From assembly GCA_016927865.1 (NCBI GenBank), contig JAFGLU010000122.1:1-64000 (forward strand): DNA of 64,000 bases. Direction: 5' to 3'. The notes under the pieces were generated by a model. The model made no database searches and had not been told where the DNA came from. It was given only the letters and a program-made list of their open reading frames with translations. Numbering within the stretch: position 1 is the stretch's first letter; each line of letters starts with the position of its first letter. The position numbers were made by a program, and so were the translations under genes. Source of the stretch: Anaerolineaceae bacterium. GTDB lineage: Bacteria > Chloroflexota > Anaerolineae > Anaerolineales > Anaerolineaceae. Below are positions 4,176 to 60,367 of the stretch, piece after piece.

Positions 4176-4844
4176 ATGAGGCGATCTTCCTTGATTTCTG
4201 CCATGCTGCTCATCTTCTGCACTTTTACCTTTCTAGGATTTCGCACAGCCAATTTGACCAGCACGTTGGAATTATCCGATCAAACTGCTGTACAAAGCAC
4301 CCGCAACAACCGGGTGATTTTAGTTCATGTTGACAATCTGCAAGCCGATAGGCCCGTGCTCAAATCTGTCTGGGTGGGGGTGCTTTTCAATTCCGAGAAC
4401 CAGGCGGTTCTGTCCTTTGTTCCCATCTACCCAGCCGAGGGTGATCGATCCGCCGCCGAAGCGCTGGCTAATTCATTCAAACTGGATCGCTCCGGAAAAC
4501 CCGCCGCCTCATTCTGGCGTCGTCTTGCCTCCTTGAATATCGAAAGAGATGGCTATATCCTTGCCGATGACTACGCCTTGCAGGAAATCGCCGGTTGGAT
4601 CAACCGGCAAGGCAGCCTGATTTATGGAGCGTCCTCCCCCAACAGTTCCACAACGCCCGGCGAATGGTTCCTCGAGCTTGGTTGCGGTTCAATTGGCAAG
4701 ACCGGTGGCAATATCGCAGAATTTTCCTGGAGTTCGCTGGGCGATCATATCCAAACTGATTTGACCGGCGAAGCGTTAGACGCCGAATGGAATAAGCTGA
4801 CCACCCCCGGGCAACCGCTTAAGTGCGAGATCGTCTGTGAATAA
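4176..4844 (+). CDS. Secreted/membrane-anchored hypothetical protein, weakly LytR-CpsA-Psr-like
   Basis: N-terminal TM; ILVHVDNLQADRP...SFVPIYPAEGD...RDGYILADDYALQEIAGWI weakly resembles LCP domain. Confidence 0.45.
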   Translation: MRRSSLISAMLLIFCTFTFLGFRTANLTSTLELSDQTAVQSTRNNRVILVHVDNLQADRPVLKSVWVGVLFNSENQAVLSFVPIYPAEGDRSAAEALANSFKLDRSGKPAASFWRRLASLNIERDGYILADDYALQEIAGWINRQGSLIYGASSPNSSTTPGEWFLELGCGSIGKTGGNIAEFSWSSLGDHIQTDLTGEALDAEWNKLTTPGQPLKCEIVCE

Positions 4845-4846
4845 AG

Positions 4847-4958
4847 GTAACTACTCAGAGGTCGAAGAAAGTCTCCAAATTTGAGGTGCATGTGGGGTGC
4901 GAAGCACCCCACATGCACCTCAAATTTGGCCCTTTTCCGCTTCTGGCTGAGTAGTTAC
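4847..4958. mobile_element. MITE-like palindromic element, 112 bp, 12-bp TIR GTAACTACTCAG, 8-bp TSD GAATAAAG
   Basis: GTAACTACTCAG (4847-4858) / CTGAGTAGTTAC (4947-4958); identical GAATAAAG at 4839-4846 and 4959-4966; 26-bp perfect hairpin 4875-4900/4904-4929 with GAA loop. Confidence 0.85.
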
Positions 4959-4983
4959 GAATAAAGAAAGAAAACCGGAAGCC

Positions 4984-5344: not shown

Positions 5345-6817
5345 ATGAAAATGGCGCCATCGAAAAAAATCTACCTGAATGGGATCGATGCTACCACGGG
5401 CCAATATCTGATCGGGCCGATGACCCGTAAACGCGCCGCGCGGTTGGCCAAAGGCGAGCCCGTCGAGCCTGAAATCATCCAGCGTTTCAAAGATTTTCTT
5501 AGTGATTTACTTTCCATTAATTTCGGTGTGGGACTCGGCCTGGAGCAAGAAACCGACTTGATACACACCGGCTGGGGCATTGTCTTCCACCAGTCAGAGA
5601 ACGACGCGGTGAAGCATGCCCTCCAACCCCTCATCGACCATCGTGCCGCCCAGGTGGGCAACATGGCCAAGGTTAAAGTGCTGGAATATCGCCCCGGCGA
5701 GCGCTTCAAAGATTGGCTGGGCCGCCATCAGGTCGGCACCGGCTTGACCAACCGCAACCCACGAAAAATCCCCTACTACCTCCTTCTAGTCGGCAGCCCC
5801 GAGCAAATCCCCTTTTCCTTTTGTCATCTCCTGGATGTGGACTATTATGTTGGCCGCATCCACTTTGACAAACCCGAAGAATACGCTCGCTATGCCCAAT
5901 CGGTGATTCAGTACGAAACCAGCCCCTCGGTACCCAACGCGCGCCGGGCAGCCTTTTTTGGCACCCGCCACCAGCTCGACCGCGCCACCCAGTTGAGCGC
6001 CGATCACCTTGTCCGCCCGCTGGTGGATGGCGAGCCTGCCCAGGGCAGCGACCCTGCCGTGCCCGGCATCGCCGCCGAGGCCGGCTACGCCGCCAGCGTG
6101 TTCTGGGGCCCCGAAGCAAAAAAAGCCACTTTGAGCGAACTGCTGGCGCCGCCTGCCGGGGTCAAGCCGCCCGCCTTCCTCTTCTCTGCCACCCACGGCA
6201 TGGGCATGCCCCCCGGAGACCCTGACCAGGCTCGCATCCAGGGCGCACTGTTGTGCCAGGACTGGACCGGCTTTGGAACCATTTCGCCCAAGCACTACTT
6301 CTCTGTCGATGATGTCCCGCCTGGCGCCCGCCTGCAGGGCATGGTGGCTTTCCATTTTGCCTGTTACGGCGGCGGCACCCCCGCCGAGGACCGCTTTATC
6401 TATGGCTCAAACAAGAAGCCCAAACGCATTGCCAGCCGGCCTTTCCTGGCGGCGCTGCCCAAAGCCCTCCTCAGCCACCCCAACGGCGCGGCCCTGGCCG
6501 TCATCGGCCATGTAGAACGAGCCTGGGGTTATTCCATCTCCACCCCCGAAGCCGGGCGGCAGATTGGCGCTTTCCGCGAAGCCATCGCCGGCATTCTCGG
6601 CGGGCTGCCCGTAGCCTTCGCCATGAAAGGTTTTAACGAGAAGTACGCCACCCTATCCACTGATCTGGTCAACACGCTGGAAGCTATTCGCTCTGGCGAG
6701 CCTATCGGAGACGAAGAACTGACTAATGATTGGATTGAACGCAACGACGCCGAAGGCTACGTCGTCCTTGGCGACCCCGCGGTTCGCTTGCGTGAAGCCG
6801 ATTTACAACCGGATTAG
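5345..6817 (+). CDS. Caspase-fold (clan CD; C25/CHAT-like) cysteine peptidase homolog
   Basis: FSATHGMG (His284) and VAFHFACYGGGTP (Cys340) motifs, followed by AVIGHVERAWGYS typical of gingipain-like domains. Confidence 0.6.
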   Translation: MKMAPSKKIYLNGIDATTGQYLIGPMTRKRAARLAKGEPVEPEIIQRFKDFLSDLLSINFGVGLGLEQETDLIHTGWGIVFHQSENDAVKHALQPLIDHRAAQVGNMAKVKVLEYRPGERFKDWLGRHQVGTGLTNRNPRKIPYYLLLVGSPEQIPFSFCHLLDVDYYVGRIHFDKPEEYARYAQSVIQYETSPSVPNARRAAFFGTRHQLDRATQLSADHLVRPLVDGEPAQGSDPAVPGIAAEAGYAASVFWGPEAKKATLSELLAPPAGVKPPAFLFSATHGMGMPPGDPDQARIQGALLCQDWTGFGTISPKHYFSVDDVPPGARLQGMVAFHFACYGGGTPAEDRFIYGSNKKPKRIASRPFLAALPKALLSHPNGAALAVIGHVERAWGYSISTPEAGRQIGAFREAIAGILGGLPVAFAMKGFNEKYATLSTDLVNTLEAIRSGEPIGDEELTNDWIERNDAEGYVVLGDPAVRLREADLQPD

Positions 6818-6918
6818 TGACTCTTCAGCCAGAGTTGAAAATGGCTCGATTTTGCCCTCTGAACAGTTACCCGGATTAATCATCACGTTGCATTGTTCCC
6901 CAAAATTGGAGGTTGATC

Positions 6919-21073: not shown

Positions 21074-21166
21074 GCACCTGCTCACCGGTGTTGGGGGAGT
21101 TCCCTAATTTGAGGTATAGGTGGGTGCTTCGCACCCACCTATACCTCAAATTAGGGCTTTTTCACT
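21074..21166. repeat. GTAAC-MITE family member (right end decayed/overlapping the neighbouring gene) between convergent genes
   Basis: CTGCTCACCGG left arm as in the gyrA copy; perfect 26-bp hairpin 21102-21127/21131-21156, loop TTC. Confidence 0.65.
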
Positions 21167-25631: not shown

Positions 25632-28600
25632 CTATTTCTTCGGCTTCACCACCGGCTTCTTGGCGGCAGGTGTGCTATTCGCTGGTTTCTTGGCTGCTGG
25701 GGTGCTTGTCGCCGGTTTCTTTGCCGCTGAAGCACCACCGGCAGGTTTCTTAGCCGCAGAAGTCGTTGCCCGGCCACCAGCAACAGGTTTCTTCGCGGCG
25801 GGTTTCACCTCCGGGGTTGTCTTGGCTGATGAAGCAGCAGGCTTCTTCGTGGCAGCTTTAGCAGCCGCCGGGGCTGTTTTTGCCTGCTGCGCAGCCGCTG
25901 GTTTCGCTCGCGTCGTCCCGGTGGCCTTAGCCTGGGTCGATGTTTGCGCGGGTTTCTTCGCCGCCGAAGTTTTCTTCACCTCCGGCAGAACCTCCGTTGT
26001 AGCAGCCTTGCGCGTTCGTGGGGCAGGAGCCGCCGCCGAGGCAGTTTTCTTCGCACGGGTTGGCTCAACCTCGGCTGGCGCTGCCGCCGCAGGTTTGGCT
26101 CGGCTACTCCTTGCTGGCGCCGCCAGCGCTGCAGCGGCAGACTTGGCTTTTCGCACAGGTTTCTCGGCCGCCGCCGGAACTGCCATCTTCTTCGCGCGGG
26201 TTGGCGTGGCTGCTTCCGGCGCCGCCGGCCCCGCTTTACTCTTGGTCGCCGCTGCCCCCCGCACCGGCTTCGCGTCTGACTCTAGCCCAGGCAGCGCTAC
26301 CTGCGCCACCGCTTCTTTCACCCTGGGCGCTTTGTCCTCTGTCGAGCGGGCCGTCTTGAACACAGGCACCGGGGTGAAACCCACCACCGAGTCGCCGCCC
26401 TTCACCGGCACCAGCTCGGTACCCTTCGCGCCGCGTTTGCTCGCCGGAACGTCTCCAATCTTCACGTTCCGCGCCGCCAGCTTTTCCAGGTGCAGCAGTC
26501 CGCCCTCCGAGGCCTTTCCGATCATCGCCGCCACCACCTGCACGCCCAAAGGCGGCTTGCAAGCAATCACACCCTGCCCATAACGCCCCTGCAAGGGGAA
26601 TTCCGCTGCGGAAGTGCGCCAGGCTTTCCCATCCGAGGCCACCCACATCACATCCGCTTTGGCATCCCAACGCACCAGGGCTGCCACAGAGTCCACATTA
26701 CCCAGCTTGACGCCCATCACACCCGCCGCAACCAGACCCATCGGCCGCACCTCGTCTTCCGAGAAGCGAATGCCCATGCCTTGGGCTGTGAACAGGCCAA
26801 TTTCTGCCTTTCCGTCCGTCACCAGCACGTCCAACAAAGCATCATCGGCGTTCACTTTCGCCAGAGTGAACGTCTGCGACGATGGACCGGGCAGCTCGCT
26901 AACCGCTGACTTTTTCAACATACCCTGGCGGGTCGCCGTCAAGATGAAGCCTTCACTGTTGGCGGCAGGAACTGTGAACATTGCCGCCAGGTAATCATCT
27001 TCGCTCAGCGCGCTGGCCTTGTTCAGTCTCACCCCTTCGGCAAAGCTCTGCACCTCGGGCAGCGTGTGCACTGTAACTGCCGAAGCCTGGCCCTGGCGGT
27101 TGACCAGGTACAGGGTTTCGTGCGTGTTGGTGCGCAGCAAGCGCAGCGGGGCGTCTCGTCCGGCGATGCGCGGCAGTTCGTCGCCCACCGTGCGCCCAAT
27201 CAACCCGTCAATCGTCACGCCCACCCACACCGTCTCGGCGGGGGTCATGTCGGTTGTGGTCAGCAAGCTGGCAGACGAATCGCCTTCTTTGATGGAGAAG
27301 ATTTGCGTCCGGCGCCGGTCATCATAGGTCGCCTTCATGGCGCCCAATTCCTCTTCCACAATCGTGCGCATCCGCTTGGGTGATTTCAACAAGGATTCCA
27401 GGTCCTTGATCTGTGCCTGCAATTCCTTGTACTCATCTTCGATCTTCTTGCGTTCCAGAGAAGCCAACCGCCGCAATTGCATATCCAAAATCGACTGGGC
27501 CTGAATCTCGCTCAACTTAAAGCGCTTAATCAACCGCTGGCGGGCCGTCTCAACATCTGGCGCCTGGCGGATCAAATTGATCACCTCGTCCAGGTTCTTC
27601 AACGCCACGCGCAAGCCTTCCAAAATGTGTGCGCGCGCGCGAGCCTTGCTCAAATCATACTCACTGCGCCGCCGAACCACTTCCAGGCGGTGTTCCAGGA
27701 ACACACGCAGGGCTTGTTTCAGGGTCAACAAGCGCGGCTCGCCATCCACCAGGGCCAGCAGGGTGATACCAAAAGTGGTCTGCAGCGGCGTGCGGTGATA
27801 CAGCGCCCGCAGCACATTCTCCTGGTCGCCCGATTTGCTCAGTTCGATCACCACCCGCATGCCGTGCCGGTCAGACTCGTCACGCAAGTCCGAGATCCCA
27901 TCCAGATGCCCTTCGCGCACCAGTTCGGCAATGCGCTCAATCAAGGTGGTCTTGTTCACCTGGTAAGGCAGCTCGGTGATGATCAGCCGCCCGCGTCCGC
28001 GCCCCGTGTCTTCGGTATGCACCCGCCCGCGCACCGTGATCCGCCCGCGCCCGCTGCCATAAGCCGAGAGCAACCCGCTCTCCGGGCCTTCCTGCAGGAT
28101 GATCCCGCCGGTGGGAAAATCGGGGCCTTTGATGAAACGCATCAAATCCGACACGTTGATGTCGTCCAGGTGTTCCCACTCCTCCAACATGTAACTCAGC
28201 GCGGAAATCACCTCGCCCAGGTTGTGCGGCGGGATGCTGGTCGCCATGCCCACGGCAATGCCGCTGGCCCCGTTGACCAGCAGGTTCGGCACCGCCGCCG
28301 GCAGCACCAAAGGCTCGCGCAAGGTACCGTCAAAGTTGTCGGAAAAATCAACCGTGTCGCGGTCAATCTGCCCCAGGATTTCCACCGCAAAGCGCGTCAG
28401 GCGTGCTTCGGTGTAGCGCATTGCTGCCGGGGGGTCGCCGTCAATCGACCCAAAGTTGCCTTGCCCATCTACCAGCATCTGGCGCATCGAAAAATCTTGC
28501 GCCAACCGGGCCATCGCTTCATAAACTGCCGAATCGCCATGCGGATGGTACTTGCCCAGCACCTCACCGACTATTCTGGCCGACTTCTTATAGGGCGAAG

Positions 28601-28772
28601 TGGCATCCACATTCATGTCGTGCATCGCGTACAGGATACGCCGCTGCACCGGCTTCAAACCATCGCGCGCGTCTGGCAGTGCCCGCGCCACAATCACACT
28701 CATCGCATAATCCAGGTAAGACTGCTGCATCTCCTGGTCAATATCCACCCGGCGAACGAGACCTATTTCCAT
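25632..28772 (-). CDS. gyrA: DNA gyrase/topoisomerase IV subunit A with long Ala/Lys/Pro-rich C-terminal tail
   Basis: [37 protein letters not shown]-type start, [37 protein letters not shown] gives start 28772. Confidence 0.88.
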
Positions 28773-28781
28773 AATTTCTCC

Positions 28782-28893
28782 GTATCTGCTCACCGGAGGT
28801 GAAGGGATCTACAGAATTTGAGATGTGTGTGGGTGCTTCGCACCCACACACATCTCAAATTCTGATCTCTTCAACCTCTGCCTGAGCTATAAA
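28782..28893. mobile_element. MITE-like palindromic element, 112 bp, inserted at the gyrA Shine-Dalgarno; TSD ATTTCTCC/TTTTCTCC
   Basis: Perfect 25-bp hairpin 28812-28836/28840-28864 (loop TTC); outer arms GCTCACCGGAGGTGAAG/CTTCAACCTCTGCCTGAGC; TSDs 28774-28781 and 28894-28901; same length as 4847-4958. Confidence 0.8.
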
Positions 28894-29071
28894 TTTTCTC
28901 CAATGTGTATGTTCGGGTTCACCTGGAACCCAGGCCTATAGTTTAACATAATTTCCATAAACTGGCCGGTTTAAGCGCTCCGGCCCCCTCCATCTGTAGC
29001 GGCGGGTCTTTAATGCGGGCTGATGTCGCACACCTTTATATATCCAGGCGCGCACTTCTCACCAACCCACC

Positions 29072-29302
29072 CTCCAGACCCGCCGATCTTCAATCACCGG
29101 GCAAATGAAAGACCGTCGGCTTGACCGCTTCCACCCGCCCCCCTTTAGCAACGTTAAATCCAGCGAAAGCCGACAACTTCCCCGCACGACATTGGCATCT
29201 TAACTCTTAGATGTCGGTTTTCGCTAACGCCTCGAAACACGCCCCGAGTAGGACAATCCGCTCAAACCGACCTACAAATTGGCTCCAGACCCGCCGATCT
29301 TC
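29072..29302. repeat. 20-bp direct repeats (CTCCAGACCCGCCGATCTTC) bracketing an inverted repeat
   Basis: Copies at 29072-29091 and 29283-29302; inverted AGCGAAAGCCGACA 29162-29175 / TGTCGGTTTTCGCT 29212-29225. Confidence 0.7.
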
Positions 29303-29371
29303 TCTCACCCAGGAATTAAATCACAAGGACGAGCCTTTCGACTCGCCCTTGTAACACTACTAATTATTTGG

Positions 29372-33604
<4,233 letters not shown>

Positions 33605-60322: not shown

Positions 60323-60367
60323 GTAACCACTCTGTTAAAGGCCGCTAAGTACCCTTTGAGTAGTTAT
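60323..60367. mobile_element. Short (45-bp) GTAAC-MITE family member upstream of lepA; TSD TTCCAAGG/ATCCAAGG
   Basis: GTAACCACTC...GAGTAGTTAT ends; TSDs 60315-60322 and 60368-60375. Confidence 0.7.

Follow-up and report, generated by a model that had tools for sequence, protein, structure and literature searches.

At the start of gyrA in the genome of an Anaerolineaceae bacterium, a long and perfect hairpin lies close to the Shine-Dalgarno (SD) sequence, which raises the question of whether this palindrome belongs to the ancestral leader or was brought there by a mobile element and, if it was inserted, how its two arms have stayed complementary. The window analyzed here, to which all plain coordinates refer, is a stretch of 64,000 nt (contig JAFGLU010000122.1, positions 1 to 64,000). 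The gyrA gene is encoded on the minus strand (25632 to 28772, with the ATG at 28772); its product of 1046 aa was identified as DNA gyrase subunit A by profile search (PF00521, 4.7e-161), with NF004043/TIGR01063 scores that exceed their equivalog cut-offs, and rpoC is located upstream on the same strand (29372 to 33604). Between the two genes, a 112-bp element (28782 to 28893, given without strand) carries in its centre a hairpin composed, on the plus strand, of a left arm (28812 to 28836), a 3-nt loop that reads TTC (28837 to 28839) and a right arm (28840 to 28864), the arms being 25 nt each and 100% complementary. The element is flanked by ATTTCTCC (28774 to 28781) and TTTTCTCC (28894 to 28901), which are identical at 7 of 8 positions and which read GGAGAAAT and GGAGAAAA, respectively, on the minus strand that encodes gyrA. 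As the coding strand reads GGAGAAATT-ATG, the duplicated 8-mer is the gyrA SD. The initial annotation had described the 112-bp element, its perfect 25-bp hairpin and the 7/8 flanks, and had taken the target duplication to be the gyrA ribosome-binding site; its coordinates and description proved correct, and the coding strand agrees with its interpretation of the duplication. The ends of this copy are degraded (GTATCTGCTCAC and TTTATAGCTCAG), yet its hairpin is still perfect.

Comparison of gyrA upstream regions among relatives, which had been suggested as a check of the insertion, showed that the rpoC-gyrA gene order is kept and that three congeners lack the element at this position. The orthologous gyrA leaders of these three congeners, including Anaerolinea thermolimosa, contain no such palindrome, and the palindrome is therefore not ancestral but inserted; the possibility that it represents ancestral leader sequence was rejected on this basis. 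The empty site is established at the level of the genus rather than the strain, the flanks being too diverged for base-by-base alignment. When the element was deleted from the host leader by computation, together with a single copy of the duplicated 8-mer, an ordinary leader with the end TTGGAGAAATTATG remained. The rpoC-gyrA interval of the host is longer than that of its congeners and contains a 27-bp direct repeat (GATCGGCGGGTCTGGAG core) at 29072 to 29098 and 29283 to 29309. A GCGGCGGGTCTTTAATGCGGGCTG-like stretch of 26-29 bp is also present between the two genes (28994 to 29021); it has approximately 9 further sites in the fetched host sequence and represents a second small repeat family. 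Moreover, the host carries a second GyrA-like gene (contig C33, 17076-17672; 76% identity over 199 residues), with elements of the 112-bp family just beyond its 3' end (locus L222, 14862-15164), and two GyrA-like genes were also found in most of the relatives searched with the first 200 GyrA residues as query.

Further analysis of the host genome identified 53 matches to the element, some of which represent both strands of one palindrome. The end motif, GTAACTRCTCAG, was found in 108 exact occurrences, as compared to 0 for the reversed control. Within 1.19 Mb of host sequence, consisting of stretches picked for known copies and thus with a copy density that is not the genome average, 68 pairs of terminal repeats no more than 135 bp apart were found. 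The target duplication (TSD) was exact at 8 bp in 25 of these 68 pairs, other lengths above 4 bp accounted for at most one case, and reversed-pattern controls yielded 0 pairs; the TSD statistics together with the empty control indicate that the pairs did not arise by chance. The majority of copies were 111-112 bp long, and a second class, 44-59 bp long, lacks the hairpin, with several members showing their own exact TSDs. In the window, a second, intact copy of 112 bp (4847 to 4958) has a TSD, GAATAAAG, that matches at 8/8 positions (4839-4846 and 4959-4966), and the hairpin of a third, end-degraded copy (21102 to 21156) has perfect 26-bp arms and a TTC loop, while hairpin-less forms are represented by a 54-bp element with the exact TSD CCGGATTA (6817 to 6870) and a 45-bp element with the TSD TTCCAAGG/ATCCAAGG (7/8; 60323 to 60367). 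When 65 elements were compared with mechanically called genes, none was located inside a called gene; the neighbouring genes were in tandem for 33 elements, divergent for 22 and convergent for 8, and 2 elements were at edges. The family, which is short, has no transposase gene, carries terminal inverted repeats (GTAACTRCTCAG), is dispersed with a fixed 8-bp TSD and shows an empty site at the genus level in the congener gyrA leaders, is a family of high-copy non-autonomous elements (MITE). The statements of the initial annotation that a family member of the same length exists elsewhere and that a mobile-element insertion duplicated the SD are thus borne out by the copy at 4847-4958, by the 8-bp TSD of the family and by the congener leaders; the hairpin-less forms, as well as the mirrored evolution of the hairpin and the IS66-type identity described below, had escaped it. 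Six contigs of the host assembly (C42, C63, C64, C92, C101 and C112 of G000) start within an element, with the end motif at positions 76-87, suggesting that the family fragments this assembly.

The gyrA leader RNA had a computed fold of -77.6 kcal/mol (z = -9.2), and a promoter scan of the leader region found no sigma-70-type promoter. If transcription starts upstream, the gyrA leader would be predicted to carry a very stable hairpin. Folding predicted that the presence of the element does not reduce the accessibility of the SD, and occlusion of the SD by the element is accordingly not predicted. Altered expression of gyrA through the element is possible on this model, and any such effect would have to come from a leader hairpin of approximately 112 nt that leaves the SD uncovered.

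Alignment of 55 copies (50 distinct rows) revealed that the inner stem is perfect over 23 pairs in 50 of the 55 copies, yet is represented by 44 distinct arm sequences. Both sides had changed at 22 of 26 stem pairs; counted as alignment cells, which represent copies and not independent events, 133 were double-changed as compared to 2 with G-U and 6 that were unpaired. Altogether 99.5% of cells were paired, a value that leans on the criterion by which copies were collected (hairpin score ≥ 15), since it leaves too few copies with broken stems in the count; the mirrored variation among copies is independent of this filter. None of 500 shuffles approached the observed stem covariation, and 76 of the 133 double changes were of the transversion type, with no route via G-U. 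The gap state was mirrored at 1300 of 1300 positions, and changes in arm length are thus two-sided. With the outer arms as reference, 28 copies have a GAA loop and 24 a TTC loop, and near-identical sister copies with 2-3 outer differences can differ by loop inversion plus mirrored changes. By comparison, the outer arms, located between the ends and the hairpin, match at just 52%.

DNA template switching between inverted repeats has been shown to lead to arm homogenization and spacer inversion (PMC8604942), and the same process has been put forward as a means by which RNA stems are maintained (PMC8794818). In the hairpins studied here, both arms change together, probably because replication copies one arm onto the other. 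Under selection on RNA pairing, G-U intermediates and a preference for transitions would be expected, and neither G-U intermediates nor an excess of transitions was seen. Taken together, the homogenized arms, inverted loops, few G-U pairs and many transversions fit template switching better than RNA selection. That the hairpin has been selected as RNA, for example as an mRNA stabiliser, attenuator or regulator, so that the covariation reflects RNA pairing, appears unlikely; this explanation would account for the very strong stem covariation, for the leader fold with z = -9.2 and for the location of the elements outside all called genes and often near gene starts, but it is difficult to reconcile with the scarcity of G-U cells (2, as compared to 133 double changes), the 76/133 transversion-type changes, a loop orientation of approximately 1:1, the 8 of 65 copies between convergent genes, the transposition of hairpin-less forms and a predicted SD accessibility that is not lowered.

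The hairpin pattern recurs in part in two other genomes, one with both loop orientations among its related elements (G005) and one in which the arms vary in mirrored fashion and the loop is of several types, some of which are also present as their reverse complements (G031). DNA similarity searches for the element in 40 relatives found only one weak core match (G037), and the element ends alone are more widespread among relatives than the core. Plasmid and phage collections gave no match to the element. Rfam gave nothing above the gathering cut-off; the only matches were sub-threshold ones to miRNA precursors, which in our view any long hairpin would tend to produce. Derivatives of 80 bp that have lost one hairpin arm were also found in G005 (L256, L282 and L287), two of them with their own exact TSDs (gaaaattc and taaaatta). 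Pairing that is strictly of the Watson-Crick type, with G-U nearly absent, and the occurrence of comparable hairpins in three lineages could also indicate that the hairpin is selected as DNA, for instance as a cruciform or a protein-binding site for mobility or host factors. We regard this as no more probable than selection as RNA, since derivatives of 44-80 bp without an intact hairpin have exact TSDs, suggesting that the hairpin is not strictly needed for transposition, and since hairpins remain perfect in copies whose ends have decayed, the gyrA copy among them.

With regard to the origin of the family, ends that start with GTAA (GTAAGCG; GTAACCGTCCGG) and 8-bp direct repeats have been reported for IS66 (PMC11946415, PMC12888890), and the family described here has both GTAA-starting ends (GTAACTRCTCAG) and 8-bp direct repeats. 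A genome from the same order (G029) contains a complete IS66 copy (L151) with GTAACCGTTCAG ends and the exact 8-bp TSD CTCAATTT; the IS66 transposase encoded inside these ends is 491 aa long (NF033517, 8.5e-90). Two further genomes (G039 and G040) contain partial IS66 copies with GTAACTGCTCAC at the one end in view. Compared with the MITE end, the complete copy has 2 mismatches in 12 bases and little similarity further inward, which does not single it out as the exact parent; judging from its ends and duplications, the element is best called an IS66-type MITE. The genome with the complete copy (G029) also carries a 122-bp non-autonomous family (L271, L276, L279 and L280) that shares the 12-bp ends but has long inverted repeats in its outer parts and a centre that is not palindromic. 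An IS66 transposase (PF03050) was not matched in the host MAG, which is 84.5% complete. A transposase encoded by the host is not required of a MITE, but would be expected of a recently active one. While its absence from the host MAG could point to an IS family other than IS66 with 8-bp TSDs as the source of the MITE, we consider this somewhat less probable still than either form of selection on the hairpin, as relatives carry IS66 transposases with flanking GTAAC..TCAS ends, in one case with an exact TSD, and as the element ends agree with published IS66 ends (PMC11946415, PMC12888890). A library search found no paper on an IS66-derived MITE, which is weak evidence of absence. An origin of the perfect arms and inverted loops in assembly errors is very unlikely: many contigs start inside the element, which suggests that the assembly struggled there, and short reads could have been assembled with a loop in the wrong orientation between its perfect arms, but the hairpin, at approximately 55 nt, is shorter than an ordinary read, 44 distinct arm sequences are present and both loop orientations occur in another assembly (G005).

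Taking these results into consideration, we favour with reasonable confidence the explanation that an old copy of an IS66-type MITE, moved in trans, occupies the gyrA SD and that its hairpin has subsequently undergone template switching. An IS66-family DDE transposase would have acted as the mobiliser of the family in trans, and one element was inserted into the gyrA ribosome-binding site, duplicating 8 bp and leaving an SD at the normal distance from the ATG. Later, template switching probably recurred at the palindrome during replication, with one arm serving as the template for the other and the loop sometimes being inverted. Such events would keep the hairpin perfect even as its sequence, its length and the orientation of its loop drift, in contrast to the outer arms, which decay. 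The gyrA insertion represents a clean case in which a mobile element splits the SD of an essential gene and the TSD restores it, and the dozens of dispersed palindrome copies provide natural replicates of apparent bacterial template switching and warn that strong covariation in a stem may have causes other than selection on RNA. It is conceivable, and we put this forward tentatively, that the textbook covariation of the 26-bp stem across the whole MITE family was generated by copying and flipping of a DNA palindrome with no RNA function. If true, covariation that is usually read as strong evidence for a functional RNA would here be DNA-generated.

Among known systems, IS66 insertion sequences share the GTAA(C) ends and 8-bp duplication with the element and have a DDE transposase in relatives, the single-transposase, ISBst12-like type being in our reading the most akin; by contrast, the element is gene-less, has approximately 12 bp of the end in common with them and is found in a host MAG where no transposase was detected. 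The element also resembles bacterial MITEs such as Correia, MITEPsy1 and the RU/ERIC-like elements, which are approximately 100 bp long and intergenic, with inverted ends, a TSD and a possible hairpin transcript; it differs from these in its IS66-type ends and 8-bp TSD, and in a perfect central palindrome that is separate from the terminal inverted repeats, varies in mirrored fashion and has a flipping loop. REP/REPIN sequences with RAYTs are likewise palindromic, intergenic and present in high copy. REPs are described as 20-40 bp long with GTAG/CGTC tags (PMC3733652), and judged against that description an assignment to REP/REPIN was rejected for an element of 112 bp with long ends, terminal inverted repeats and a clear 8-bp TSD. 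Template switching at quasipalindromes in E. coli, yeast and rRNA stems similarly homogenizes the arms and inverts the spacer (PMC8604942, PMC8794818), whereas the case presented here extends over dozens of copies scattered through a single bacterial genome and is known by pattern alone. The element is a further MITE of a known kind, in which the mirrored variation of the hairpin is unusually clear.
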